40,986 nt of DNA from Candidatus Methylomirabilis sp. (GTDB lineage: Bacteria > Patescibacteriota > DYJS01), in assembly GCA_020723005.1 (NCBI GenBank), contig DYJS01000004.1:1-40986 (forward strand), given 5' to 3'. The first letter of the stretch is position 1; every line of letters begins with the position of its first letter. Shown here in pieces: positions 186 through 40,986 of the stretch. The notes beneath the pieces are model-generated. The model was not told where the DNA came from and did no database searches. It was given only the letters and a program-made list of their open reading frames with translations. The translations under genes and the position numbers were made by a program.

Positions 186-464
186 CTAAATAAATATAAA
201 ATCTTCATCTTGTGCTAAATCTGGATGATTTTCACCAAACTTTTCTATCTTACTTTTACAACTTTCACACAAAAAGTAAATACGAACACTATCAACTGGC
301 TGAATAATTTCTGCAATTTTTTCTTTCATAGATCTTGCCATCAATTCATCCAATTCGCATTCAAAAACACTCTTTTGCACTCTCTCTCCAAAAGATTTCA
401 TAATTTTTGCAATTTTATTTAATCTTTTCGGTGTTTTTATGTCGTATGTTACAACTAGTTTCAT
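186..464 (-). CDS. cas2: CRISPR-associated endonuclease Cas2
   Basis: 92-residue protein of the Cas2 family, which forms the Cas1-Cas2 integrase complex that inserts new spacers at the leader end of the array. The N-terminus has the ferredoxin-like first strand with the conserved Asp (MKLVVTYDI), followed by the ERVQKSVFEC segment typical of Cas2. The ATG at 464 is chosen because the protein then begins at the conserved strand and starts 4 nt after the cas1 stop. An in-frame start at 506 would add 14 residues and overlap cas1. It is the last gene of the minus-strand cas operon. The C-terminus carries a CESCKSK segment. No missing key residue was noticed. Confidence 0.93.
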   Translation of the reverse strand: MKLVVTYDIKTPKRLNKIAKIMKSFGERVQKSVFECELDELMARSMKEKIAEIIQPVDSVRIYFLCESCKSKIEKFGENHPDLAQDEDFIFI

Positions 465-468
465 AGTT

Positions 469-1458
469 TTAGAATTTGAACGGAGTATAGGTATTAACTT
501 TTTCATAAATTAAATCTCTTAAATTTCTTTGTTGCTTAATAATTATATCATAAAACGAAACCTGTTTTTCTTGACCTGGATAATCATATTTTTGAGCGAA
601 TTTTGTATGAAATGCTCGTATCAATGATTTTATTGCTTCTCTATTCATCAAAATTCTTCCATCACTCTCTTTTCTAAATTGTTCTGGCAAAACAATACTT
701 CTTGAAACAAGTCCAAGCACCATTCCATCAATAGAATAACGAAACTCTTCCATCATATCATAAACCAAACTTTTCCTTCCAAAATCAATTTTATGAAAAA
801 ATCCTAAAAAAGGATCAAGTCCAACCTGTCTAATTGCTCCACCAACAAGTTGTGCAAGCAGTGTATATCCAAAAGAAAGCATAGAATTTACCTCATCTTT
901 TGGTGGAAATTTATTTCTTCCAGAAAAAGAAAAAACTTCATTTTCAAAAAGTTTTCCAAATCCTTCAAAATATTTTCTACTTGCCAACCCTTCAATTCCT
1001 AAAAGCTCTTCAGGAGATTTTGCAAAATTTACATTATTTTTAATTTTCTCAATTTCATCCAAAATATATTGTAAATTAACACCTTTATTTCTTTGTAAAA
1101 GTTGTAAATTTCTTCTTGAGTTAGCAATTTTTCCAAGAACAATTAATTTTGAAAAATCTAATTTAAAATCTTCATTTAAAAATTTTTTATACTGCTCAAT
1201 TTTCAGATTTGTGTTTTTTCCAGTGATACTATTTATCTCTCCAATATAATCTCCATTTTCACCAAGAAAAAATATATCTCTATCAGTTTTCAAAAATTCT
1301 TTAATGACTGGAGTTGTGATTGTGATATTTCCAAAAACCACCAAATGGCTAACAGTGTTTATTGGATACTTTTTTTGCACAGATTCATTTTCTAAAATAA
1401 TCTCTCCTTCAGAAAATTTTACTACAGAATTTTGTTCAAAAATATAAATTGGAAACAT
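469..1458 (-). CDS. cas1: CRISPR-associated endonuclease/integrase Cas1
   Basis: 329 residues, normal length for Cas1, the metal-dependent integrase of spacer acquisition. The N-terminal beta domain runs to about residue 90 and the helical catalytic domain follows. The expected active-site motifs are present: LLGIEG with E156, the GFFHKIDFGR segment with H222, and the YDMMEEFR segment with D234 and E237. The GLDPFLGFFH block is a strong Cas1 signature. The gene begins 3 nt after the csm6 stop and ends 4 nt before cas2, so it is co-transcribed with the interference genes. No reverse transcriptase or Cas6 fusion is present, unlike in some type III adaptation modules. Confidence 0.96.
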   Translation of the reverse strand: MFPIYIFEQNSVVKFSEGEIILENESVQKKYPINTVSHLVVFGNITITTPVIKEFLKTDRDIFFLGENGDYIGEINSITGKNTNLKIEQYKKFLNEDFKLDFSKLIVLGKIANSRRNLQLLQRNKGVNLQYILDEIEKIKNNVNFAKSPEELLGIEGLASRKYFEGFGKLFENEVFSFSGRNKFPPKDEVNSMLSFGYTLLAQLVGGAIRQVGLDPFLGFFHKIDFGRKSLVYDMMEEFRYSIDGMVLGLVSRSIVLPEQFRKESDGRILMNREAIKSLIRAFHTKFAQKYDYPGQEKQVSFYDIIIKQQRNLRDLIYEKVNTYTPFKF

Positions 1459-1461
1459 TTT

Positions 1462-2856
1462 TTAGATTATTAAATTTTCTAAATCTTTATTTAAAATTTT
1501 GTGCCATTGTTTTTTTATTAATTTTTCATTTTGCAAAATCTTTTCTTGTTCTTTTATAAAATTTTCAATTCCACAAAAATCTGCAAAATCGTTTTCTGTC
1601 AATCCCTCCAACCTGTGAGCAACAAAAGATTCATTCCTTTTTTCCATAAGTTCCTTTAATTGTACAAAAAAAGATTTTTCAAATTTATTATTGTTCAAAG
1701 CATAAAATAAACATATTTTTGCAATAGAATTAAATTGTCTATTTTCATCAAATTCACTTCCCAAGATTTCTTTTATCTTAGATTTTACATCGGTAGTAAA
1801 AAATTCTTTTGCCTTTTCTATTAAAAAACCTCTTTCATCAGTCCATTTAAACTTATAGTTTTTTTCTAAATAAAAATTTACAAAATTATCCCATAAATTA
1901 TAAATTCTAGCAACTGCATCTGTAAATCTTCTCTGTTTGAAATAAATTTTTGTTCCAATCCAAAGATGAAAAATTTTGATTTCAGTTTTTTCAAAGTCTT
2001 CCAAGCTTGATAAGAATTTCAATTTCTCTTTTTTAGAATGTAGTTTTTCTTGTAAAATTTTTGCAGATTCTAAATCAAAAAACAAAATCGAATTTACAAA
2101 TTTTAAAACATTCAAAATTGTTTCTTTATTTGTAAACTCTGCATTTGAATCTTCTAAAATTGATATCGCTGAAGAATACTCATATTTTTTAATCAATTTC
2201 AAAATTGCATCTTGAACAAAATATTTTTTAACTGTATTCTCATAATCAATATAAAAAACTTTTCCATCATCACTAATTCTGCAAACCGATAAATTTTTTA
2301 TCCATTTTACAGCATTTAAAAACAAAGCATTGTTTAGTGCAGGAATCCCAGCAGAGATCAAAATTGTTGTTTCTATATTTTTTAAATTGTATCTTCTTAT
2401 TAAACTTTCATAAAATTCAAAAACTTTTTCCTCATCACTTGTATTAAAATTCACCTCTTCTAAAAAAATCTTACTTTTTTCTCCAAAGATTTTTTCTATT
2501 ATTTTACCTTCAAAAATTGTATCTGAATTACGAAAATTATCTCTTGCATCAATCTGATTTGTTGAAACAATTATTATATCAGAAAATTTCTCCTTTAATT
2601 TAGAAATAATTTCCAAATTTAAATTTTCTTTATATTTATCAAAATTTTTAAAAATTATTTCTGTAATTTCTTTAAATTTTTTTTCACTATCCACAATTTC
2701 CCCTGTTCTTAAATCCTCTCTTTGTTCAAAAAATTCAGGATAAAGTTTTTTAAACTCCAATCTATTGTTTTTATTCAAGTTTTTTCCACCTAAATAAAAT
2801 TTAGAAATTGTTAAATCGCTATTTCCAATATTCGCTATTAAAATTTTTTTTTTCAT
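1462..2856 (-). CDS. csm6: Csm6-like CARF-HEPN ribonuclease
   Basis: 464 residues. Csm6 is the stand-alone effector of type III-A systems: its CARF domain binds cyclic oligoadenylates made by Cas10 and this activates the HEPN RNase, which degrades RNA non-specifically. The N-terminal about 200 residues have a Rossmann-like CARF layout, with an ILIANIGNS strand at the start, an IIIVSTNQ strand near 95-101, and the ligand-loop-like LISAGIPALNNAL near 166-178. The C-terminal HEPN carries the R-x6-H motif RNESFVAH (R407, H414). A helical linker joins the two. It sits between cas6 and cas1 with spacers of a few nt. CARF similarity is judged from motif placement. A Csx1-type name is the alternative. 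No separate ring nuclease is seen in the locus. Confidence 0.82.
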   Translation of the reverse strand: MKKKILIANIGNSDLTISKFYLGGKNLNKNNRLEFKKLYPEFFEQREDLRTGEIVDSEKKFKEITEIIFKNFDKYKENLNLEIISKLKEKFSDIIIVSTNQIDARDNFRNSDTIFEGKIIEKIFGEKSKIFLEEVNFNTSDEEKVFEFYESLIRRYNLKNIETTILISAGIPALNNALFLNAVKWIKNLSVCRISDDGKVFYIDYENTVKKYFVQDAILKLIKKYEYSSAISILEDSNAEFTNKETILNVLKFVNSILFFDLESAKILQEKLHSKKEKLKFLSSLEDFEKTEIKIFHLWIGTKIYFKQRRFTDAVARIYNLWDNFVNFYLEKNYKFKWTDERGFLIEKAKEFFTTDVKSKIKEILGSEFDENRQFNSIAKICLFYALNNNKFEKSFFVQLKELMEKRNESFVAHRLEGLTENDFADFCGIENFIKEQEKILQNEKLIKKQWHKILNKDLENLII

Positions 2857-2860
2857 ATTT

Positions 2861-3625
2861 TTAATTTAATTTTTTAAATTTTACATTTCCAAAACCAAAA
2901 TTTGTTTTATTTCCAACTCCAAAAAAATCGGAAGTTTTTGCAAGAAGTGCAACAAAATTTTTTAATTTAAAATTTTTTTCATCAATATTTCTAAATTCAA
3001 AAATTGATTCACCAACAAAACCTTCAATAGAAAAATTTCTAAACTTTTTCTTTCTCGTTTCAATTTTAGAAGAAATTTGAAAAAGATTTTTATCAATAAA
3101 ATTTTCAAAATCTCTCTTTTTTTCTTCTTCAAATTTAACTAAATTTGTTTTTAAAAATTTTTTCAAAAGGGAGTTAAAAATTCTTTTCTTTTCTGGAATA
3201 GAAATAATTTCATCACCATTTTTAAAGAAAGTTGGAGAAAAAAATTTGAGAGAAAATGAATTTGTTTCTTTCGCTAAATTTTCCAAAAATTCTAAAGTTG
3301 CAAACTGAGCAAAACGATTAGAAAGATGATTTGTAAAAACTTGTAAAATTTTTATCTTCTCTTTTCCAACAAAAATTTCTTTATTGATGAAAGAAGAAAG
3401 GATCTCTCCTAAAAATTCATCTCCAAAAAAACCAAATTTTATAAAAAATTTTTCATCTTCTACAAAAAATGGAGAGATTGAAAAAGGTTTTCTTTGTTCA
3501 TGAATTTGTGAAGAGATTTCTTTTGGTAAAACCTTTAGAAATGCGGAAAAAAATTGATATCCAGAAAATTTTTTGTCGATTTGAAAAACTATATTGTAAA
3601 ACATTTTGTAAAAACTATTTTTCAA
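2861..3625 (-). CDS. cas6: CRISPR repeat RNA endonuclease Cas6
   Basis: 254 residues, the usual size for Cas6, the RAMP-fold nuclease that cuts the pre-crRNA within each repeat and leaves the 8-nt 5' handle. The middle has an LKFFSPTFF...IPEKKRIFNSLLKKF block typical of Cas6. The C-terminus has GFVGESIFEFRN followed by the glycine-rich GVGNKTNFGFGNVKF, matching the G-rich loop near the end of Cas6. H42 in the IHEQRKPFS segment is in the region where many Cas6 proteins have a catalytic His. It starts after a 93-nt gap from csm4, which holds a hairpin, and is followed 4 nt later by csm6. Confidence 0.85.
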   Translation of the reverse strand: MKNSFYKMFYNIVFQIDKKFSGYQFFSAFLKVLPKEISSQIHEQRKPFSISPFFVEDEKFFIKFGFFGDEFLGEILSSFINKEIFVGKEKIKILQVFTNHLSNRFAQFATLEFLENLAKETNSFSLKFFSPTFFKNGDEIISIPEKKRIFNSLLKKFLKTNLVKFEEEKKRDFENFIDKNLFQISSKIETRKKKFRNFSIEGFVGESIFEFRNIDEKNFKLKNFVALLAKTSDFFGVGNKTNFGFGNVKFKKLN

Positions 3626-3646
3626 AAATACAAACTCTTATCTTCC

Positions 3647-3679
3647 TTCAAGATGACAAACTTTTTTTATCATCCTGAA
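3647..3679. repeat. Inverted repeat between csm4 and cas6
   Basis: Arms TTCAAGATGA (3647-3656) and TCATCCTGAA (3670-3679) pair with one G-T type mismatch around a 13-nt T-rich loop. Further partial copies (CTCATCCTAAG) follow to about 3701. The arm sequence resembles the TTCAGGATGACA palindromic repeat seen again at 15291-15355. It occupies the largest gap inside the cas operon. It may be a mobile palindromic element or an mRNA processing/attenuation site; function is inferred. Confidence 0.55.
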
Positions 3680-3718
3680 AAATTTTTTCTCATCCTAAGA
3701 TTAAAAATCTGAAGATTC

Positions 3719-4711
3719 TTAACTTATTTTTGCTTTTAATGTAAAAGCAGTTGCATTTTGAATCACTTTTTCATTTACGGAGATATTTTTCAAAATTTTA
3801 CCAAGATAATTTTTATTTTCATAATTTTCTCTCTCTTTATCGTTTTTAAAATCTAACACACTTCCAGCAGAAAAAAATAAAATTGGTTTTTTAAAAGGAT
3901 TCTGAGAATTAGAAAACTCTTCTCCAAGTTTTCCATATTTCACAAAAGTTTCCCATTTAGAATTCTCCCCAGTTGGATCACTTTTATCTGGAACAAAATT
4001 TGAAAGCGAAACAACAGAATTATAATCTTGTAAATTTTCTAAATCATTAAAACCAGAAAACTCTTCAAATTTTGGATCTTCCAAAACTCCCATTCCAACA
4101 GATTTTTTCTTTCCAAAACCAGACTCAAAAGATTTTTTTAAATTTTCTTCAACTTCATATAATTCAAAATTTTCTTGATCTAAAATTTTTATAAAAAACA
4201 CAATTCTCATATTTTTTACAAAATATCTTGGAGTTGTTGAAAAAAGTTTTTTTCCTTCAACTGCAATTCCACTTTCTCTGCTAATTTCTACCTGAGTTTT
4301 TAAATCTTCTTCAAAAAAATTTGGAATTTCTAATTTTTCAAAACATTCTTTTGCTTCTTCTAATTTTTTAGAAACAAGATACTTAAAAATCTCTAAATTT
4401 ACAAATTTTTTCTTTTTTAACTCTTTTCCGTTTAGCTTATTTTTAATCCTCTCTAATTTCTCTTCATTTTTTTCAAAAGGAATATGTATCATAGGTTTTG
4501 GCAAGAAAATATCATTTTCATTTTCATAAAATCCATTTGAAATTGTAAAAATCGGTTTTTTTTCAAAATCTTGCAAAAATCCTTCTAAATCTTTTTCAGA
4601 TAAATTTCTTGAAAGTTCCCACACAAAATGCCCAAAAATTGTATCACTATAAAAATCTGTAAGAAATCCAGATTTTGGAGAGAAAGATAGTTTATAAATT
4701 TTATTTGTCAT
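3719..4711 (-). CDS. csm4: Type III-A effector subunit Csm4 (RAMP)
   Basis: 330 residues. Csm4 is the Cas5-like RAMP subunit that caps the 5' handle of the crRNA and contacts Cas10 in the Csm complex. Evidence: the SDTIFGHFVWEL block near residues 22-33, the KPMIHIPF segment, the glycine-rich loop GFGKKKSVGMGVL, and a C-terminal half with LSNFVPDKSDP, FVKYGKLGE, PFKKPILFFSAGS and QNATAFTL, all in the Csm4 order. Its ATG lies inside the end of the preceding small gene (11-nt overlap), so translation is probably coupled. In most III-A loci csm4 precedes csm5; here it follows csm5 and the extra gene. Confidence 0.86.
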   Translation of the reverse strand: MTNKIYKLSFSPKSGFLTDFYSDTIFGHFVWELSRNLSEKDLEGFLQDFEKKPIFTISNGFYENENDIFLPKPMIHIPFEKNEEKLERIKNKLNGKELKKKKFVNLEIFKYLVSKKLEEAKECFEKLEIPNFFEEDLKTQVEISRESGIAVEGKKLFSTTPRYFVKNMRIVFFIKILDQENFELYEVEENLKKSFESGFGKKKSVGMGVLEDPKFEEFSGFNDLENLQDYNSVVSLSNFVPDKSDPTGENSKWETFVKYGKLGEEFSNSQNPFKKPILFFSAGSVLDFKNDKERENYENKNYLGKILKNISVNEKVIQNATAFTLKAKIS

Positions 4712-5066
4712 TGGAATATTTTAATCCATCTGATTCTAAAATTTCTCCCAAAATTATACCATTTTGTTTTGCTTCTAAAACAGAATTTCTTAAAGATGCA
4801 GGATCTTTTTTTGAAATTATTACATCAGATCCAACAATTTTTAAATTCTTAGGAAGTTTTGTAAAACCAGATTCTGCAATAATCATCTTTCCTCGAACGA
4901 TTTCAAGGTTTGGAAATGAATTTTCTGACATATTTCTATTTCCAGCACAATTCAAATCTCCACCTATTTCTTTTAAATTACTTATTATTGTTGCATTTTT
5001 TTGGTTTTTGTTTTCTTCATCTTTTCTTCTGAAAATTTTAATTAAAAATTGTATAATGTTTTTCAT
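4701..5066 (-). CDS. Uncharacterised repeat protein inside the csm operon
   Basis: 121 residues, not a known Csm/Cas subunit that I recognise. The N-terminus MKNIIQFLIKIFRRK is a short amphipathic helix with a basic edge and could touch a membrane or RNA. Residues about 28-85 contain short leucine-rich-repeat-like strand/turn units (LKEIGGDL, FPNLEIVRGKMII, LPKNLKIVGSDVII) of the IGGDL / LP-NL-IVG type. The tail (86-121) looks mixed alpha/beta. It starts 29 nt after the csm5 stop and overlaps csm4 by 11 nt, so it belongs to the operon and is probably translated with csm4. It might be a complex accessory, a regulator or an anti-anti-CRISPR factor; these are guesses. Confidence 0.7.
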   Translation of the reverse strand: MKNIIQFLIKIFRRKDEENKNQKNATIISNLKEIGGDLNCAGNRNMSENSFPNLEIVRGKMIIAESGFTKLPKNLKIVGSDVIISKKDPASLRNSVLEAKQNGIILGEILESDGLKYSNDK

Positions 5067-5095
5067 ATTTAATAATTTAATCTTTTAAATCAATT

Positions 5096-6019
5096 TTAAT
5101 TTATTTTAACTTTACACCAACCTAAATGATTTTTATTTTCATCTATAAATGCTGTATGAACATTTTGATTTGAATCATTTCTCGATCTTGGAGATTGTGC
5201 ATCTGTAAATATTTTAAAATAACTTGTTCCACCAAATCCTAAATTTAATATAAATTCATCTTTTTTTAAATTTTGTAAATTAGTTTCAATTTTTTTTAAA
5301 GATTGATAAAAATGATTTTCAAAAACATTAAACCTATTTAATTTTAAAAAATTCTCTAATCCTTTTTTAGCTTTTTCTAACTCTTTACGATAATAATTTT
5401 TAGATTTTTCATTCAAATATAAAATTTGGTTTGAGATATCGTTTAAAACTTCAACTTCAAAAGACTCTCCTACTTTCAGATTTATTGCATAAACATCAAT
5501 CCATTGATTGTTTCTTTTTCCTCTATTTAAAATTTCCACATTCATTTGACCTGCTTTTAAAAAACTATCTCTCATAATTATTTTTGAAAAAGCAGGGTTG
5601 TCGCTAGAGCTTCTTTTCTCTAAAATAGTCAAAAGTGCACCTTTCACACTACTTGCAGGAATATAAAAATTGCCATTTTGATTTGGAAACTCTTTTACTT
5701 CTAAATTGCCATTCAAATTTAGATTATTATATTTTCTCAAAAACATTTCTGAAACAGATATTTTAAAATCAGAAACATCGTCTAAATTTAAATTTTTGTT
5801 TCCAAAAAATTTGAAAAAATAATTTTGAATAGCTCTTACACTTTGATTTTTTCCAATTTCAAAATAACTATATTTTTTTAAAATTTTTTTATGATTTAAT
5901 CTAAAAAATTGATTTTCTTTTTCTGTAACAATGTAATCAATTCCAAAAACAAGTTTATTTCCTGTAGAGATATGAATTGGTGTCAAAGTTTCAAATTGTA
6001 AAATAATTTTATTTTTCAT
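5096..6019 (-). CDS. csm5: Type III-A effector subunit Csm5 (RAMP)
   Basis: 307 residues. Csm5 is a Cas7-like RAMP at the 3' end of the crRNA in the Csm complex and takes part in crRNA maturation. The N-terminus has FETLTPIHISTGNKL, the standard Csm5 opening. A RAMP loop, IPASSVKGALLTIL, lies near residue 120. The C-terminus has NLGFGGTSYFKIF and ends in LGWCKVKI, similar to the Csm5 C-terminal LGW motif. Its ATG overlaps the csm3 stop by 4 nt. Shorter than many Csm5 proteins (about 350-400 aa) but all landmark motifs are present. Confidence 0.88.
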   Translation of the reverse strand: MKNKIILQFETLTPIHISTGNKLVFGIDYIVTEKENQFFRLNHKKILKKYSYFEIGKNQSVRAIQNYFFKFFGNKNLNLDDVSDFKISVSEMFLRKYNNLNLNGNLEVKEFPNQNGNFYIPASSVKGALLTILEKRSSSDNPAFSKIIMRDSFLKAGQMNVEILNRGKRNNQWIDVYAINLKVGESFEVEVLNDISNQILYLNEKSKNYYRKELEKAKKGLENFLKLNRFNVFENHFYQSLKKIETNLQNLKKDEFILNLGFGGTSYFKIFTDAQSPRSRNDSNQNVHTAFIDENKNHLGWCKVKIN

Positions 6020-6630
6020 TTTTTCTCAACTAATTCCAAAATTTCAACTGCACCATATCCACGACTTCCAGAACCTCCTAAATAATCATTTTTCAAAAGC
6101 TCAAAACCTTCTTTTATCAATTTTAGGCTTTTCTCCAAATCATCATCGGTTTCTCCTCGCAAAATTATCTCTATTTCAAATTGGACATCTTTCGGAACTC
6201 TTTCAATAAATCTTGGACCAGCTCCACTTGCTGTGCCAGTTAATCTATCGATACTAACCTCTGCTTTAATTTCATTTTCAATTTCTTCATTTTCATATTT
6301 TTTCTTCCATTCTTCTGTTAGATGTGCATCTCTGAAAATCACTTTTGTATATTTTTTGTTTTCGTTCTCTGTTTTATCTCCACCAGAACCAAAAACTTCA
6401 GCAACCTCTCCGGTTTTTGAAGGGTTACCATTTTTGAAAAGATTTTTTTCTATTTCTAAAAGCGATCTAATTTTTCCTTTCAAACTACTTCCAGGAATAT
6501 ATGGAAGTTTTGAAATTGGATCTTTTACAACATAGCTATCAATTCCTCCGATTTTAAACTGATCGTTTCCTGATCCAATATGAAGACCGGTTTTAACGAT
6601 TAAAATTATTTTATAAATTTTTCTTTTCAT
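6016..6630 (-). CDS. csm3: Type III-A backbone subunit Csm3 (target RNA cleavage)
   Basis: 204 residues. Csm3 is the Cas7-family subunit that forms the filament along the crRNA and cuts the bound target RNA at 6-nt steps. The N-terminus TGLHIGSGN...IGGIDSYVVKDP followed by LPYIPGSSLKGKIRSLLE is a textbook Csm3 sequence. D31 in GGIDS lines up with the catalytic Asp (D32 in the S. epidermidis protein), so target RNA cleavage should be intact. The C-terminus has DYLGGSGSRGYGAVEI, the glycine-rich RAMP loop. It lies between csm2 (9-nt gap) and csm5 (4-nt overlap). The start is preceded by the A/T-rich ATTAAATTAAAACT and no Shine-Dalgarno sequence. Confidence 0.96.
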   Translation of the reverse strand: MKRKIYKIILIVKTGLHIGSGNDQFKIGGIDSYVVKDPISKLPYIPGSSLKGKIRSLLEIEKNLFKNGNPSKTGEVAEVFGSGGDKTENENKKYTKVIFRDAHLTEEWKKKYENEEIENEIKAEVSIDRLTGTASGAGPRFIERVPKDVQFEIEIILRGETDDDLEKSLKLIKEGFELLKNDYLGGSGSRGYGAVEILELVEKK

Positions 6631-6639
6631 AGTTTTAAT

Positions 6640-7266
6640 TTAATCTCTTTTATATTTTGAAAAATAACCAACCAAAGAAAGCATATGCTGATAAAACATC
6701 TCTAAATTTTTTGAGAAATTTTCATCTTGAGATTTGGTAATTATATCAATTCTGTTTCTAAAAATTTCCTTAAATTCCTCTGAAGCTTCTTTTGAGTATT
6801 CAGAAAGAGCAAGAAGAATAAATAACTTCTGTTTAGCAGTTTCTATATTTCCATTTTTTCGAAAATTTTCATAAATTTTAACTATTTCATCATAAAATTT
6901 CCTAAGTTGATTATTTTTCATTCCAGATTTTGCAAGAATGCTTGCTAAATTATCAACATTTCCATAACCATCTGGAGATATAAGCCATTCAAAAATACCT
7001 TCTTCGTCAAAAAAACTATCGATTAAAAAATCTTTCATTTCAAAAAATATTTTTGTAATTAGTCTGTCTCCAAAATTTCTAGGAAAATTAAATCTTTTTT
7101 CTTTTAAATTTTCTTCTGATTCTAAAAGAATTTTAAATTTTCTATATTGACCATAAATTTCTGAAACATCTATTATATTACCTAATTTTTGAAAATATTC
7201 ACAAATATTAAATTTTTGTAAATTTCTATCAATTCTTTCTAATATAATTTTATATTTATATTTCAT
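6640..7266 (-). CDS. csm2: Type III-A small subunit Csm2, N-terminally extended
   Basis: 208 residues, larger than the usual Csm2 of about 120-145. Csm2 is the helical small subunit that lines the inner filament of the Csm complex next to the target RNA. The conserved core starts near residue 105 with NLASILAKSGMKNNQLRKFYD, which matches the Csm2 opening, and ends with the MLSLVGYFSKY helix. The first about 100 residues have no counterpart that I recognise. The ATG overlaps the cas10 TGA (ATGA), giving tight coupling to cas10. Assigned by the core motif and its position. Confidence 0.8.
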   Translation of the reverse strand: MKYKYKIILERIDRNLQKFNICEYFQKLGNIIDVSEIYGQYRKFKILLESEENLKEKRFNFPRNFGDRLITKIFFEMKDFLIDSFFDEEGIFEWLISPDGYGNVDNLASILAKSGMKNNQLRKFYDEIVKIYENFRKNGNIETAKQKLFILLALSEYSKEASEEFKEIFRNRIDIITKSQDENFSKNLEMFYQHMLSLVGYFSKYKRD

Positions 7267-9896
7267 TTTCTTAAATTTAATATTACAAATTTTAAAAGCG
7301 ATAAAATATAATTATCTACAAAATTTTTTGATGAGATATCGGTTAATTGATTGCAAAAATCAAAAACTTCTTTTTGCAAAGAATCCTTTAATTCCCCTTG
7401 TCTGTTTTTAAACTCCCTTTCAATTTTGTAAGTTAAAATTGGGTGCCAAATCATTTTTCTAGAGTCTTTTTTCTTTCCTTTCTCTTCAGATTCTTTTTTT
7501 AAAATCATTAAATCATGCAAATCCCGTAGTATTCCAGAACTCATTTTTGGTTTATTTTCCAAATTTTTATCATAATTTTTTCTCCATACAATTACATTAT
7601 TAGCTTCTTTTATAAAATCCCCCACTTCCTCATTTTTTATCACATCACCAAACAAAAATATACTTGCCTTATTTTTGGATTTATGAAAAAAATTAGAATT
7701 TTCTTTTAAGTTTGAAATATCTAATTTATCTTTCTTTGATTCTTTTTGATTTTTTTCCGAACTTTCTGCAACAAATTTTATTGGTGTAGAATGTTTAAAT
7801 GGTGTCGCACTCCAAGAGATGTGAATTTCTGGATTATTGCAAACAAATTTTTCAAATTCTTTATTCAAGTCATCAATCAAATTTAAAAAAGTTTTAGTTT
7901 CATCCTTTTCTCCGTTTCTATCATTTTTAATTTCGTCATTATTTACAAAAAATGGAGAAATCAAAAACAGATCATCTCCACCTGCATAAATTGTGTAAGT
8001 TTTTGGATAATTTTCTTTTAGCCAAAAATTTAGATACTCTGAAAAGAAAGTTTTTAAAAGATCTGACATCTGAGTGATTCGAGAAAGTGTAAAAAGATCT
8101 CTATTTTGAAAATCTTGAGATTTTTCATTTATTGTCCCAGAACTATAATATTCTTTGTTGTCTTGAATCAATGTTTTTTCATTTTGAGACAAAAGATCTG
8201 TTTTTTCATCAACTCTTAATCCTTCTGCAAAAAGTAATCCCAAATTATCAATATCTCCACGAATAGCGATTAAAGGTTTTTCTTCTGCCAATTTTTCAAA
8301 ATCAACAACTTCGTTTAATCCTTCTTTTGTTGTTAAAACATAATTTGCAACATTCAAAAACCTTGTATTTTGCAATTTTTTAATCTCTTCTCCTTCGCTG
8401 TTCTCATTTTTTCTTCCATCTTTTGCCTTTTCAAAAATTTTTTCACGATCTGGATTTATTAAAAGTCTTCTAAAGTTTTCTTTTTTTAAAAAAGAGATCT
8501 CAATTTTTTCATCAAATGAATAAAAAATTTCAAATTCATCTCTTACCATTTTTTCACCAAGGGAAATTTCTAAAAAACAATTTTCACAAATTTTCTTCTC
8601 TCCATTTTCCTCTTGAAGAGTTTTTGATAATTTCTTTGGTTTTTTACAGATTGGACATTTTATATTTTCAAAATCTTCAATATTTTTTTCAAATTCAAAA
8701 TTTCCAACAAAAACATCTTGCCAAGAATTTTCATCCTTTATTAAACTTTCAAATTGATTATTTCTTTCGTCTTGCAAATTTTCTGAAATTGATTCAAAAA
8801 TATCAAAAATATTTTCTTCGTCATCTTTTCCAGAAAAAGCATTTAATCCAAAATCTCTTGAATTCCAAATTGCAAAACGAAGTTCATAAAAATGTTTTTC
8901 TTTCAAAAAAAATTCAACTTTTTTTTTGATGTTTTTAATTAAATTATCAAAATTTTTTAAATCTGGAACAAGAATATAAAATTTCCCACCAGCTTGCATT
9001 AAAAGATTAGCTTCCGTCAAGCCAAATTCATGCAACACAACATCAGAAAAAATTTTCCCATAAATTTGAACCAAAGTACTTCTAGAGCGAAGTCTTTTTG
9101 CAACTTTCTCTCCTTCAATATCTGTAATAAATTTTTGAATTCCTAAAAAATCTCCAACTATAATTTTAAATTTAGTACATTCAATTTTTCTTTCTTTATC
9201 TTCCAATTTCCATTTATAAATACAATGAGAAATTGCAGAAACATCTTTAGAGTGTGTAAAAAGAGAGATATCAGTTTTTTCATTTCCTGTAAAATCTGGA
9301 ATGCTCCAAGTGTAAGTTTTTAAAACTTCTAACAAAAAAGAAATGATATCTTCAAAATTTGTGAAAGTAGAAATTGATTCTAAAGATTTTAACAATTCTT
9401 CAAAAGAAAAATAATGAGTTTGTAAAATGTTATTTTTTTCTTTTGGAATAATTTTTGAAATTTCAAATTTTGATTGATCAAAAAATTTGGTTTCTAATTC
9501 ACTTTGAAAATCTGGATGAATTTTTGTTTTTGAAAAAATTGAAGCCAAAAATCTATGAGAAAAATCTTTAAATTTCCCGTTCTCTGTTTCAACATATTGC
9601 AAATCTTCTCTTTCTGATGCATTTCCATGATCTGCAATCTTTATAATTTGAGTAAAAAGATCTAAATTTTTTTCTTTTGAGTGATGATTTTTAATTATTT
9701 CTAAAAATTTCGAAAAGTTTTCTTCTTTATCTTTATCTTCTAAAATTTTTTTAAAAGTTTCTTTTAAAGAATTTACAAAATCAACTCCAAAATCTGAGTG
9801 AGATTTTTGTTTCGTTTTCTCTGCTCGTTGTTTAAATTTTCCAATATCATGAAAAAGTGATCCAAGAATCAAAATTTTTTCATTAATATTCAACAA
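7263..9896 (-). CDS. cas10: Cas10/Csm1, type III-A large subunit and cyclic oligoadenylate synthase
   Basis: 877 residues, at the upper end for Csm1. It forms the crRNA-guided effector, cuts ssDNA with an N-terminal HD domain and makes cyclic oligoadenylate second messengers with a Palm domain. Visible features: LFHDIGKF with H16-D17 (HD nuclease), a zinc-binding CPIC (from C414)...CENC (to C440), and YAGGDDLFLI with GGDD at 639-642, the cyclase active site. Both activities therefore look intact. The start is a TTG (a second TTG follows at once) with no Shine-Dalgarno; an 18-bp hairpin lies 26 nt upstream. The gene is first in the operon and overlaps csm2 by ATGA. Confidence 0.96.
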   Translation of the reverse strand: MLNINEKILILGSLFHDIGKFKQRAEKTKQKSHSDFGVDFVNSLKETFKKILEDKDKEENFSKFLEIIKNHHSKEKNLDLFTQIIKIADHGNASEREDLQYVETENGKFKDFSHRFLASIFSKTKIHPDFQSELETKFFDQSKFEISKIIPKEKNNILQTHYFSFEELLKSLESISTFTNFEDIISFLLEVLKTYTWSIPDFTGNEKTDISLFTHSKDVSAISHCIYKWKLEDKERKIECTKFKIIVGDFLGIQKFITDIEGEKVAKRLRSRSTLVQIYGKIFSDVVLHEFGLTEANLLMQAGGKFYILVPDLKNFDNLIKNIKKKVEFFLKEKHFYELRFAIWNSRDFGLNAFSGKDDEENIFDIFESISENLQDERNNQFESLIKDENSWQDVFVGNFEFEKNIEDFENIKCPICKKPKKLSKTLQEENGEKKICENCFLEISLGEKMVRDEFEIFYSFDEKIEISFLKKENFRRLLINPDREKIFEKAKDGRKNENSEGEEIKKLQNTRFLNVANYVLTTKEGLNEVVDFEKLAEEKPLIAIRGDIDNLGLLFAEGLRVDEKTDLLSQNEKTLIQDNKEYYSSGTINEKSQDFQNRDLFTLSRITQMSDLLKTFFSEYLNFWLKENYPKTYTIYAGGDDLFLISPFFVNNDEIKNDRNGEKDETKTFLNLIDDLNKEFEKFVCNNPEIHISWSATPFKHSTPIKFVAESSEKNQKESKKDKLDISNLKENSNFFHKSKNKASIFLFGDVIKNEEVGDFIKEANNVIVWRKNYDKNLENKPKMSSGILRDLHDLMILKKESEEKGKKKDSRKMIWHPILTYKIEREFKNRQGELKDSLQKEVFDFCNQLTDISSKNFVDNYILSLLKFVILNLRK

Positions 9897-15412: not shown

Positions 15413-15440
15413 AAAAGGTTCAAGTCAAAAAACTTGAACC
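15413..15440 (-). terminator. Intrinsic terminator of the 19098-15451 operon
   Basis: On the minus strand, GGTTCAAGT, a 6-nt TTTTTG loop, ACTTGAACC, then TTTT. The 9-bp perfect stem plus T-run lies 10-40 nt after the stop of the beta-helix gene, in the right place and orientation to end that transcript. Confidence 0.65.
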
Positions 15441-15450
15441 CGCGGAAGAA

Positions 15451-16410
15451 TTATCCTATATTCACACTTCCACTATTAACTTCTAAATTCAAAGAATTTA
15501 ATGGTTCTTCTTTTCCAAAATATCCTTTCAAGGATTGTTCTCCACCGTTACGGCTACCAATTGATATTACATTTCCACCATTTCTAATATAAACACTATT
15601 CCCAGAAGATTTTTGACCTTTTTCATCACTTTCTTCTAAGGTAGTGAAACCAGACTTTGGTTTTTCCATATTTCCAGATCTTACTCTTACATATATTGTA
15701 GCACCTTCAATACTTTTAACCCTTATGCTTCCACTATTGCAAATTATGTTTGAGTAATTTTCTATTTGTAATTCATCAATTCTCACACTGCCACTATTTG
15801 TTCTAATTCTAATTGAACCTTTTACTGAATCAATATCAATATTTCCACTCTTAACACGAGCATCTAGTTCACCCTCAACTCTTCCAATTGTTAAATCTCC
15901 GCTATTTTGATCAACCTCCAAAGAACCAATAATTTCTCCAACTTCAATATCTCCAGAATTTCCAGAAAATCTAACATTGCCTCGCAATTTTTCAACCCTA
16001 GTTTCTCCAGATTCATTTCTTAAAATTGTTCTTATATCTTTTTCTGGAACTTGAACTATTGTTTCAGTTGTTTTTGAACAACCAGTTTCTCCATCGGAAT
16101 TTGGATTTACTTTTTTTCCGTTTATCCAAACTTCATCATTTGTAATTGAACTATTATTATTCAAAAAATTACTTATTACAACATTTCCTTTGCCAACAAT
16201 AATTACAGAACTTTCAGAAACACCTGATGATTTAGATTTTGCAACAACCCTGTTTCCATCGTATTCAAGAGTATCAAAACCAGAGCCGTTTTCGTTTTTT
16301 ACTTCAGAGTCTTTTCCTTCAATAATTGTTCTTGCAATAATTTTTGGTTTGCCTTCTGTTATTTCTACAACAATACTTCCTCCAGATGACTCAACCAAAA
16401 CTTCTTGCAA
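15451..16410 (-). CDS. DUF4097-like beta-helix protein, possibly phase variable
   Basis: 319 residues from a TTG. The second half is a series of short strands with SGD/SGN/SGS turns (NSGDIEVGEI, NSGDLTIGRV, KSGNIDIDSV, NSGSVRIDEL, NSGSIRVKSI), the layout of the DUF4097 putative-adhesin family. Upstream, the same frame stays open and meaningful (a DEKGKRIIEEIIELDPEKL segment) but the only ATG, at 16519, is out of frame because of a (GA)7 tract. One more GA would join it and give about 356 residues. There is no signal peptide in either version, so an extracellular place is not evident. It follows the TraG-like gene after 38 nt (from 16519) and ends at a terminator. Function unknown. Confidence 0.75.
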   Translation of the reverse strand: MQEVLVESSGGSIVVEITEGKPKIIARTIIEGKDSEVKNENGSGFDTLEYDGNRVVAKSKSSGVSESSVIIVGKGNVVISNFLNNNSSITNDEVWINGKKVNPNSDGETGCSKTTETIVQVPEKDIRTILRNESGETRVEKLRGNVRFSGNSGDIEVGEIIGSLEVDQNSGDLTIGRVEGELDARVKSGNIDIDSVKGSIRIRTNSGSVRIDELQIENYSNIICNSGSIRVKSIEGATIYVRVRSGNMEKPKSGFTTLEESDEKGQKSSGNSVYIRNGGNVISIGSRNGGEQSLKGYFGKEEPLNSLNLEVNSGSVNIG

Positions 16411-16473
16411 TTTTTCTGGATCAAGTTCGATGATTTCTTCGATTATTCTTTTCCCTTTCTCGTCTTTAACTAC

Positions 16474-16487
16474 TCTCTCTCTCTCTC
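16474..16487 (-). repeat. (GA)7 dinucleotide tract at the start of the beta-helix gene
   Basis: Seven uninterrupted GA units on the minus strand, about 32 nt after the ATG at 16519. With 7 units the ATG frame stops at TAG/TAA within 18 codons; with 8 units it enters the 319-residue frame. Both the upstream codons and the downstream codons look like one protein. This is the arrangement of a slippage-controlled on/off switch. Confidence 0.75.
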
Positions 16488-16557
16488 GATTTGTCTTGTT
16501 CTTGTATTTTGTTTAGCATTTTTTTAATTTAATTATTAAAATTTTAATTTTTAAAAA

Positions 16558-19098
16558 CTACTTTTCTTGACCAATCCTCATTCTCTCTTCAATTTCCATC
16601 TCAACCAATTCACGAGGACGACCATATTTTAATTTTGAAAGTTCTTTGATTAGTTGTCCTAATTTTTCATTTCTTGGAGCACGAATCGGCACAGTTTCCA
16701 TTGAAAAAGGCTCTCCATTCTGTCCATCAATCATCAAACGAACAAAAGCATTTCTATTTGGAAGTTGTGAAATATCATTTTTATCAAAAACTTTTGGAAA
16801 AAGTTTTTCAAGTGCTTCAGAATCTTCAATTCCTGTTCTAAAAACACAGACTGTTCCAACATTTCCAAGCACAGCATCTTTAACTTTTTCTGGAAGTTGT
16901 TTGACATACTGATGTCCCATCGTAAGAGAAAGTTTATACTTTCTTGCTTCAGACAAAATCTCTGCAAAACTATCATTTGCAAAATTTTGAAACTCATCTG
17001 CATATAAAAACATTGGGATTCTTGCTTCTTGTCCCATTTTTGCTCTTTGAAATGCTGCTGCTTTTAATTTTGAAACAATAATTTGACCAAGAAGAGAAGA
17101 GTTAAAAACTCCTATTTTTCCTTTTGAAAGGTTACAAATTAAAATTTTTCCATTTTGCATAACATCCATAAAATCAAAACTACTCTTGCTTTGTCCAATA
17201 ATATTTCTCATCTGTGGAGCTGTGATGAAACGACCAAATTTTGAAATTATGTATGAAAGTCTTTCACCTTTAGAATTCCCAGAAGAGTTTTTCATTTCAA
17301 CAAAAAAATAATCACGAACAGAAAAATTTTTTGATTTCTTTGCAATTGCCTCTGCGAATTTTTCATCTGCTTGCATTCTTGGCATCTCAACCAAAGTTCT
17401 TGTCGTGGATTCATCATCCATTAAAGCAAGCATACAATTACGAACAGAATGCTCAAAAATTGGTCCCATAGTTTCTGCATCAAAAAGTTGAAACAAAATA
17501 TTCACAAATTCCTGAGTTAACATATCTTTTTCATCATCATCGTGTGGTTCCATAATGTTTAGACCCATTGGACGAGAAAAATCACCGGGATCAAAATATA
17601 TCACATCTTCTGCCCTCTCTTTTGGAATATAATTTAAAATATCTTCTGCATCTTCTCCGTGTGGATCAAGAAAACAAACTCCGTTTCCTTGCAAAATATC
17701 AGAGATTATCATCTGCTTTTGAAAATAAGTTTTTCCAACACCAGTTTGTCCAATAATATATATATGACGAAAACGATCTTCTTGTTTAATTCTAACATCT
17801 TTTTTTACTCCACGAAAATTTGTAACACCCATCAATGTTCCTTCTGTTGGAAGATTTGGAGGAGCTTGAGCTTTTTTAGAAGGAAGCCAACGAATATCTG
17901 GAACTGTGCAATATTTGTTTGGTAAATGAAAAATTGTCGAAATCTCTTCAGTATTTAAAATACTTCTATCTTCCAAGTTTGTTCCAAGAACTGGAAATTT
18001 TCTTAAAACAAAATCTGTAATCAATTTCGGAGAAGAAGATCTTCGTTTTTTAAATTTATTAAATTCTGGATGTTCAAATTGTGTAAAAACTCCAATCACA
18101 TTTTCTAATCTATGTTTTGCATTTTCTTTGCTTTCACTAACAATTGCAATTCTGATAATTGAATCAAAACCAAGTTTTGTTGTTTTCTCTGCAATCGCCT
18201 TAATTCTTTCTTGATCCATAGGAGTAATCTCTCTTTTTTCTTGTTTTTCTTCTTGTTCTTTCTGAGATCTTTTTTGTTCATTTCTTTGTGCTTGTTCTGG
18301 ACTAACACTATCACCAAAAGAACTAAAAATTTCAGACAATCCATCAGCAACTCCTTTCATAACCTTTTGACCAAAAGTATCTTTTTTCTCTTCTCCTTTT
18401 TGAATTGATTTGATTTTTGCTTTTGCTTGATTTCTCCACTCTTCACTAGAAACTGGCTGAATCAAAATCTGAATCACCCCAGCTTCTGTTCCTTTCATTT
18501 TACTAATTGCAGTTGTTATTGAATTTAAAGGATCATAATCTAAAGTTTTGTAAGTTTTAATTGGAAGCAAGCTATTTTTCTCTGTCACAAGCTCAGCACA
18601 TTCAACAAATCCTTCAGAATCAAAAATTTTATGATCTTCTAAAATCTCTTCAATTGATGCATCAGACCAAACAGAATGAATCTGTCTCTCTAAAAAAGTT
18701 CTATATTTCCTTTGAATTGCAAAATAAAAATATATCTGTTCGTTTTGAGAAACAATCTCCATAGAAAGGGACGGAACCGATTTGCCCATAAATTTTTCAA
18801 ACCAACCAAATTTTTTATACATACTCCAAACATTCGCAAAAAAAGGTTCAACACCACCAAGCATAGTTTTTAAATCTAATCTTTTTTCCTCTTCATTGAT
18901 CACCTCTCTTGGAACTTTAATTCTCAAAATTGAAAGATTTAACGAAGATTCAATGTCTTGTTTTCCAGTTTGAATATTTTTGAAAATTGAAATTCCAAAA
19001 AAAATAATCAAGAAAAAAAGAATGGCAGATAATGTAACATCAATTACATTAAGTTTTAAAATTCCAATAGACCAAAATGTTGTAAAAAATATATTCAT
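16558..19098 (-). CDS. TraG/VirB4-like type IV secretion/conjugation ATPase
   Basis: 846 residues. N-terminal membrane segment at about 20-42 (VTLSAILFFLIIFFGISIF), then a long helical region, then a HerA/FtsK-type ATPase domain with Walker A GQTGVGKT (450-457), the LDPHGE strand and a Walker B like MFLYADEFQNFA. Such membrane-anchored ATPases with a type IV coupling/DNA-binding character are widespread in CPR genomes and are taken to move DNA or drive pili or uptake. No relaxase or mating-pair genes are nearby. Upstream of its ATG lies an (AAAAG)n purine tract. It heads a two-gene transcript with the beta-helix gene. Confidence 0.85.
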   Translation of the reverse strand: MNIFFTTFWSIGILKLNVIDVTLSAILFFLIIFFGISIFKNIQTGKQDIESSLNLSILRIKVPREVINEEEKRLDLKTMLGGVEPFFANVWSMYKKFGWFEKFMGKSVPSLSMEIVSQNEQIYFYFAIQRKYRTFLERQIHSVWSDASIEEILEDHKIFDSEGFVECAELVTEKNSLLPIKTYKTLDYDPLNSITTAISKMKGTEAGVIQILIQPVSSEEWRNQAKAKIKSIQKGEEKKDTFGQKVMKGVADGLSEIFSSFGDSVSPEQAQRNEQKRSQKEQEEKQEKREITPMDQERIKAIAEKTTKLGFDSIIRIAIVSESKENAKHRLENVIGVFTQFEHPEFNKFKKRRSSSPKLITDFVLRKFPVLGTNLEDRSILNTEEISTIFHLPNKYCTVPDIRWLPSKKAQAPPNLPTEGTLMGVTNFRGVKKDVRIKQEDRFRHIYIIGQTGVGKTYFQKQMIISDILQGNGVCFLDPHGEDAEDILNYIPKERAEDVIYFDPGDFSRPMGLNIMEPHDDDEKDMLTQEFVNILFQLFDAETMGPIFEHSVRNCMLALMDDESTTRTLVEMPRMQADEKFAEAIAKKSKNFSVRDYFFVEMKNSSGNSKGERLSYIISKFGRFITAPQMRNIIGQSKSSFDFMDVMQNGKILICNLSKGKIGVFNSSLLGQIIVSKLKAAAFQRAKMGQEARIPMFLYADEFQNFANDSFAEILSEARKYKLSLTMGHQYVKQLPEKVKDAVLGNVGTVCVFRTGIEDSEALEKLFPKVFDKNDISQLPNRNAFVRLMIDGQNGEPFSMETVPIRAPRNEKLGQLIKELSKLKYGRPRELVEMEIEERMRIGQEK

Positions 19099-40495: not shown

Positions 40496-40796
40496 AAAAA
40501 TTTTTACAATTTAAAATTTTTATTTAAATCTCTCACAAATTCGCTAAACATTCAAAATATTTTGTCAAAGAATTTTAAACTCAAAAACTTTTATTTTATA
40601 TGAAAAATCTTTAAAATATATTACTTAAAAATTCAAAATCAAAAAAATTTTCCCAATTTTTTTACTTCATCTTTTGACTTACTTTTGGCTTTTAATCTTT
40701 TTTCTTTCAAAACCTTGACTTAACTCTCTCTCTAAAATCAAATAAGAAATTGACAAATTCAGTTTCAAAGATTTTTAGAATTAAATTTTTTAAAAA
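40496..40796. other. AT-rich intergenic region before the last gene
   Basis: 301 nt without an ORF. TTGACA at 40750-40755 is a perfect -35; the best -10 (TAGAAT at 40776-40781) lies 20 nt on, too far for a standard promoter, but the pair is in the right place for the gene starting at 40797. Nothing else recognised. Confidence 0.35.
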
Positions 40797-40986
40797 ATGA
40801 ATAATGAAGAAAGTTATCAAAATAATAACCTAACAATTTTAGAAGAGACGGAAAATTTAATAATAGTTAGTCCTAAAAATAAATCTTTAGAAGAAATGTA
40901 TGAAAAAGCACAAAAACTTGCAAATGAAAAGAATAAAATGGTAAGATTTACATTTCAAGGTGGTGTAGATTTCACTTTTTATCCAG
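40797..40986 (+). CDS. Hypothetical protein, truncated at the window end
   Basis: An ATG-started open frame that runs out of the window after 63 codons. The visible part (NNNLTILEETENLIIVSPKN, then an amphipathic helix LEEMYEKAQKLANEKNK and the strand MVRFTFQGGVDFTFYP) is soluble and alpha/beta. No family recognised. It starts a new transcription unit on the plus strand. Confidence 0.5.
   Translation, partial: MNNEESYQNNNLTILEETENLIIVSPKNKSLEEMYEKAQKLANEKNKMVRFTFQGGVDFTFYP

Follow-up and report, generated by a model that had tools for sequence, protein, structure and literature searches.

Introduction

Pathogens and mycoplasmas offer well-known examples of genes switched on and off by repeats, and the products of phase-variable genes are usually surface-exposed or act on surfaces or DNA, a feature that is typical and not strictly required. 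A search of the open-access literature gave no report of a frame switch by short repeats in bacteria of the candidate phyla, although absence from that literature is not proof.

In the mod gene of Mycoplasma mycoides subsp. capri (MmyCI), the frame meets a TAA codon immediately beyond the tract when there are 12 AG repeats, while 10 repeats put the gene in frame and leave its product active (PMC3498834). The locus described here resembles mod in its intragenic AG/GA tract, in the TAA codon found directly after that tract at an out-of-frame count, in the full protein encoded at another count and in its AT-rich reduced genome (PMC3498834). It differs in that the 12 and 10 units of mod were found in clones of differing activity, whereas we have a single genome with 7 units, and in that mod encodes a Type III methyltransferase and our locus a DUF4097 protein. 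The frame of the Helicobacter pylori oipA gene is also set by a dinucleotide (CT) tract at the 5' end of the ORF (PMC10564699), but oipA encodes an outer-membrane protein, whereas our protein has no signal peptide.

The DUF4097 domain is carried by LiaG, and the Toastrack domain has been described as a right-handed beta-helix (PMC11237479). Our protein is like the Toastrack proteins and the LiaG protein of Bacillus subtilis in that it scores above the Pfam cut-off and is predicted to have a strand-rich, possibly beta-helix-like core (PMC11237479). LiaG belongs to lia/psp envelope-stress operons, whereas the protein described here has no membrane helix and has the genes of a VirD4/TraG-like ATPase and a prolyl-tRNA synthetase as neighbours. 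The hypervariable PTD-repeat gene of a Gracilibacterium is another case of repeat-associated variation in a CPR bacterium (PMC6851277), but its repeats are coding 9-mers with synonymous variation and not a short tract that switches the frame.

The window, that is, the whole stretch of 40,986 nucleotides that was analysed, has 26% G+C and belongs to a genome of 749 kb, available as a draft assembly (25 contigs, 91% complete, N runs adjoining repeats). Stretches totalling about 440 kb of this genome were read, and the whole-genome counts given below are pattern searches. The genomes of relatives from the same phylum are about 0.4-2 Mb in size, which fits the presumed CPR assignment.

Results

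The (GA)7 tract puts a long open frame out of frame with an upstream ATG codon

The features of the locus, all on the minus strand, are as follows.

16558..19098, minus strand: VirD4/TraG-like ATPase gene (DUF87, TraG-D_C), upstream on the same strand, 38 nt before ATG 16519
16466..16519, minus strand: 17-aa ORF that begins at ATG 16519, crosses the tract and ends at the TAA directly behind it; present 7-unit product MLNKIQEQDKSRERESS
16474..16487, minus strand: (GA)7 tract within the 5' coding region; the pure AG/CT run is 16473-16487, 15 nt
15451..16512, minus strand: long open frame of 353 codons, DUF4097/Toastrack protein, with a coding signal back to about the tract
16408..16410, minus strand: TTG, the long frame's first canonical start codon, with a poor start context and 21 coding codons upstream
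15413..15440, minus strand: terminator-like hairpin GGTTCAAGT...ACTTGAACC followed by TTTT, directly after the stop (read from the sequence)

The first-pass annotation had claimed that the frame of ATG 16519 enters the (GA)7 tract, that the long frame ending at 15451 is reached from it only with 5 or 8 units, and that this long frame stays open through the repeat to a TAA near the ATG. Our results agree on all three points. The tract occupies codons 11-16 counted from ATG 16519, whose frame terminates after 17 codons, and the long frame is open upstream as far as the TAA at 16515-16513; no ATG, GTG or TTG was found in it upstream of TTG 16410. In silico changes of the unit count gave products of 354 aa with 5 units and 356 aa with 8 units, versus 15-19 aa with 4, 6, 7, 9 or 10 units.

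The same arrangement could serve recoding, in which slippage of the ribosome or the RNA polymerase over one GA unit yields a constant fraction of full-length protein from unchanged DNA. The long frame is regained when two bases are read twice, the TAA lies directly behind the tract, and a dinucleotide run permits the tRNA or the nascent RNA to re-pair after a two-base slip. However, two-base recoding is rare in general, and we regard this explanation as highly improbable.

The start signal and the coding signal are in different frames

A start-site motif was found upstream of the ATG codon.

16528..16534, minus strand: AATTAAA start-site motif, exactly at -15 of ATG 16519

AATTAAA was present in the last 30 nt upstream of the ATG in 47 of 200 genes, versus 4 in the preceding 30 nt, and it peaked exactly at -15 (18 of the 214 ATG genes, against 1-4 at other offsets). 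With ATG 16519 left out of the training set for start context, its upstream score was higher than those of 99.5% of gene starts and of 99.9% of the intergenic ATGs that are not starts. Enrichment of G upstream of starts, of the Shine-Dalgarno type, was absent in the genome, so that Shine-Dalgarno sequences are not the rule here. AATTAAA, fixed at -15, may be a lineage-specific initiation signal. A TANAATNAA promoter motif before ATGs was also considered and was rejected, since it was not enriched over shuffles.

Codon usage was scored with a model trained on the confident genes of the window, for which the 95th percentile of off-frame 25-codon windows was about -0.4. The 21 codons of the long frame from 16473 to 16411 scored 9.9, while the other two frames of the same segment scored about -10.5. 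The segment from the ATG to the tract scored 0.52, which is uninformative either way; the median of true N-termini was 0.58. Since 16473-16411 belongs to the coding part of the long frame, TTG 16410 is very probably not where the gene begins, and both codon usage and start context disfavour it. This affects annotation, as TTG 16410 is the earliest canonical start that the long frame offers. Since a true start signal and a true coding region are thus found in different frames, a shift must lie between 16512 and 16468, an interval that includes the tract.

We also considered that the gene is not disrupted at all and begins at a non-canonical codon (ATA 16446, ATC 16443 or similar) or at TTG 16410, the mini-ORF of ATG 16519 being a leader or unused. 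Such starts are plausible because two genes, mnmE and ruvC, lack ATG, GTG and TTG at conserved N-termini, and in 120 of 357 cases the first start that is possible is a TTG. The start-context scores point the other way, as they are poor for ATC 16443 (-1.0), TTG 16410 (-1.8) and ATA 16446 (-3.1) in comparison with ATG 16519 (4.88), and no codon of the long frame between 16512 and 16410 has a context comparable to that of ATG 16519. In addition, the coding signal reaches 21 codons upstream of TTG 16410, and this reading would leave the near-perfect start signal, out of frame as it is, to coincidence. A rescue of ATA 16446 by the AAAGG upstream of it, as a Shine-Dalgarno sequence, was rejected because starts in this genome show no upstream G enrichment. 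Taken together, we consider an undisrupted gene unlikely.

The two genes lacking canonical starts are those of MnmE (window 13475, minus strand) and RuvC (L041 19780, minus strand). RuvC could begin with ATT (IRILGIDPG), and the genome may make use of non-canonical starts.

The tract exceeds chance expectation

Four (GA)5 matches were observed in the window, versus 0.12 expected from dinucleotide shuffles. In the approximately 440 kb that were read, AG/CT runs without a preceding TTGAC numbered 1404, 275, 154, 25, 15 and 5 for lengths of 5 to 10 nt, respectively, and above 10 nt the only run outside the TTGAC promoter family (described below) was the 15-nt tract of the window. Extrapolation of this decay, by simple arithmetic, gave about 0.02 expected runs of 15 nt. 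The tract is therefore more than chance. At least one (GA)7 was present in 20 of 144 other genomes from the phylum, which makes a lone tract unusual and not unheard of.

A frame-junction scan of the whole genome was dominated by antisense shadows and was replaced by a filtered scan. The tract of the window was the only convincing intragenic tract of its kind found, which indicates that a general contingency repertoire within coding regions is absent. Two G homopolymers occur despite the AT-rich genome, a G9 (L036 12376-12384) and a G8 (L045 13243-13250), one of them intergenic and the other inside a broken reading frame. The G8 tract (L045 13243) was unconvincing as a second intragenic switch, as it sits in a broken, pseudogene-like region.

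The long frame encodes a DUF4097 protein that looks soluble

The protein had been called DUF4097-like in the first-pass annotation, and family searches bore this out.

15544..16143, minus strand: DUF4097 (Toastrack, PF13349) domain by Pfam; strand-rich core predicted at residues ~150-265 of the ORF read from 16473

The match to the Pfam DUF4097 'Toastrack' family (54.8 bits, cut-off 22.9) was obtained when the C-terminal 231 residues were scanned alone, and a family search of the genome found DUF4097 at the same place with 51.7 bits. The full 340 aa gave no Pfam match, probably as the effect of a filter. A weak match to LiaG agreed with DUF4097. The AlphaFold2 single-sequence model had a strand-rich core at residues ~160-240 (pLDDT 75-91), and a fold search of the PDB with this model found nothing significant, nor did a search of the PDB by sequence give a match.

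The family search revealed no DUF4097 paralogue in the genome. No homologue of the protein was found in 38 relatives, and 380 genomes of the phylum yielded just two weak domain-level matches; comparison of proteins on contigs of other genomes found no close relatives.

The earlier suggestion of a switch for a surface protein was unsupported. No signal peptide or membrane helix was found in the DUF4097 protein, and its maximum 19-residue mean hydropathy was 0.99, so that it has no hydrophobic segment. The protein looks soluble, and these absences make the surface-protein rationale weak.

A fixed frameshift or an assembly error could give the same frames

A fixed frameshift, namely a recent slip by one unit or another indel within 16512-16468, would make the gene an early pseudogene with no reversible switching. 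This is plausible because the genome contains real pseudogenes, each with several lesions, and another gene (L013, minus strand, ~12830) whose frame appears to shift at an A6 run; a benefit of switching is also not evident. In contrast to those pseudogenes, the DUF4097 gene has one lesion only, exactly where the sole long intragenic AG/CT run sits, and its 353 codons are otherwise open, with a strong coding signal and an intact domain. We consider a fixed frameshift plausible but rather unlikely.

The pseudogenes with multiple frameshifts, named here by motif reading, are SodA-like (L030 18950-19800, minus strand), MinD-like (L035 4600-5560, minus strand), NUDIX-like (L042 6400-7100, plus strand) and ABC-F-like (L034 8300-9000, plus strand). 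They are evidence of ongoing gene decay. In the case of the A6 run, which lies on the contig of the window and downstream of it, an ORF started by ATG shifts frame near the run.

An error of sequencing or assembly, with a true count of 8 (or 5) and an intact gene, would be in line with a draft of 25 contigs, 91% complete, in which N runs adjoin repeats. However, the 15-nt tract is well inside the length of short reads, the large housekeeping genes of the window are intact, and the clustering of several hits in pseudogenes, as opposed to scattered single indels, speaks against a high rate of indel errors. We judge such an error to be very unlikely.

Phase variation of the DUF4097 gene is the leading reading

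Slippage-controlled phase variation of the DUF4097 gene, with the assembly representing the OFF phase, is our leading reading among several, and we hold it tentatively, with less than even confidence. According to this model, the gene would start at ATG 16519 and encode a mainly soluble DUF4097/Toastrack protein, the translation of which would depend on the length of (GA)n. With 5, 8 or 11 units the full protein of about 354-358 aa would be made, whereas with the 7 units of the assembly ribosomes would stop after 17 codons and the gene would be OFF. Replication slippage, by adding or removing units, would turn the gene ON or OFF. We infer the slippage in the population, its reversibility and any benefit from this arrangement.

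Neither the MutS nor the MutL family was detected by family search in the 91%-complete genome, while both families matched in 11 of 14 control genomes. Slippage would consequently go uncorrected. H. pylori is likewise without canonical mismatch repair. The frame logic of the phase variation first proposed for this locus has been upheld, and the start motif, the codon usage, the outlying tract and the undetected MutS and MutL favour a real start that the tract separates from its own coding region; the surface location is unsupported. For a highly mutable tract, 7 units would be a small number, and this counts against a switch. With a dinucleotide tract separating a start signal from an intact domain, and with neither MutS nor MutL detectable in the genome, the locus is a concrete and testable one.

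A family of promoter-like elements has CT runs as spacers

The pattern TTGAC-(CT)n-TA[AG]AAT was found at 24 distinct places in the genome by pattern search, and its reversed control at 0 places. One copy is in the window.

40715-40800, plus strand: promoter-like element of the TTGAC-(CT)n-TA[AG]AAT family

Further examples are found in L055, L065, L067, L072, L074, L079, L032 (11193) and L034 (10007). Each of 360 other genomes of the phylum had a few at most. In the genome, 9 of the 10 places with at least 7 GA units were this promoter-like element read on the CT strand, and the tenth was the tract of the window. Membership of the tract in the family was rejected, as its flanks are TTTAACTA and GATTTG and no plus-strand ORF lies downstream.

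In these elements, TTGAC-(CT)n-TA[AG]AAT is followed by an AT-rich leader and then by a small ORF, whose ATG usually lies at a distance of 67-93 nt from TTGAC. The spacing of the boxes was 8, 9, 10, 11 (twice), 12, 14 (11 times), 15 (three times) and 19 nt (three times). The elements are often divergent from housekeeping genes, identified by reading as polA, uvrB, pth, murC, metG, murE and mnmA. The downstream genes are mostly unrelated orphans; a short zinc-ribbon-like start is common to just two of the small proteins compared, and the 8 that were scanned against Pfam all stayed below the cut-off. A DNA pattern scan outside the genome gave three promoter-like matches in other organisms, and a scan of viral contigs gave no match.

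For transcriptional phase variation one would expect such an arrangement, with a CT tract in the promoter spacer whose length varies. A family with variable spacers would look similar if it were a co-regulated regulon with a tolerant spacer, and also if drift were acting on decaying copies of the element. Beyond the single gene, the Toastrack (GA)n switch and the 24 (CT)n-spacer elements could together form a slippage-based contingency system working without mismatch repair, the elements shuffling the expression of many small proteins through the length of their tracts; we find this wider proposal unlikely. If true, it would be the first such repertoire known to us in an apparently CPR-type bacterium. 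The genome-specific family of 24 promoter-like members may be a more novel feature than the GA switch.

Upstream of the apparently frameshifted gene of L013 we observed TTGACTTCA-T10-ACTAGGAT, which is the spacer element in a T-tract form. The window also carries a CRISPR-Cas-like gene cluster (186-9896, minus strand) with Cas2-, Cas1- and Cas10/Csm-like ORFs, as read from the ORF list only.
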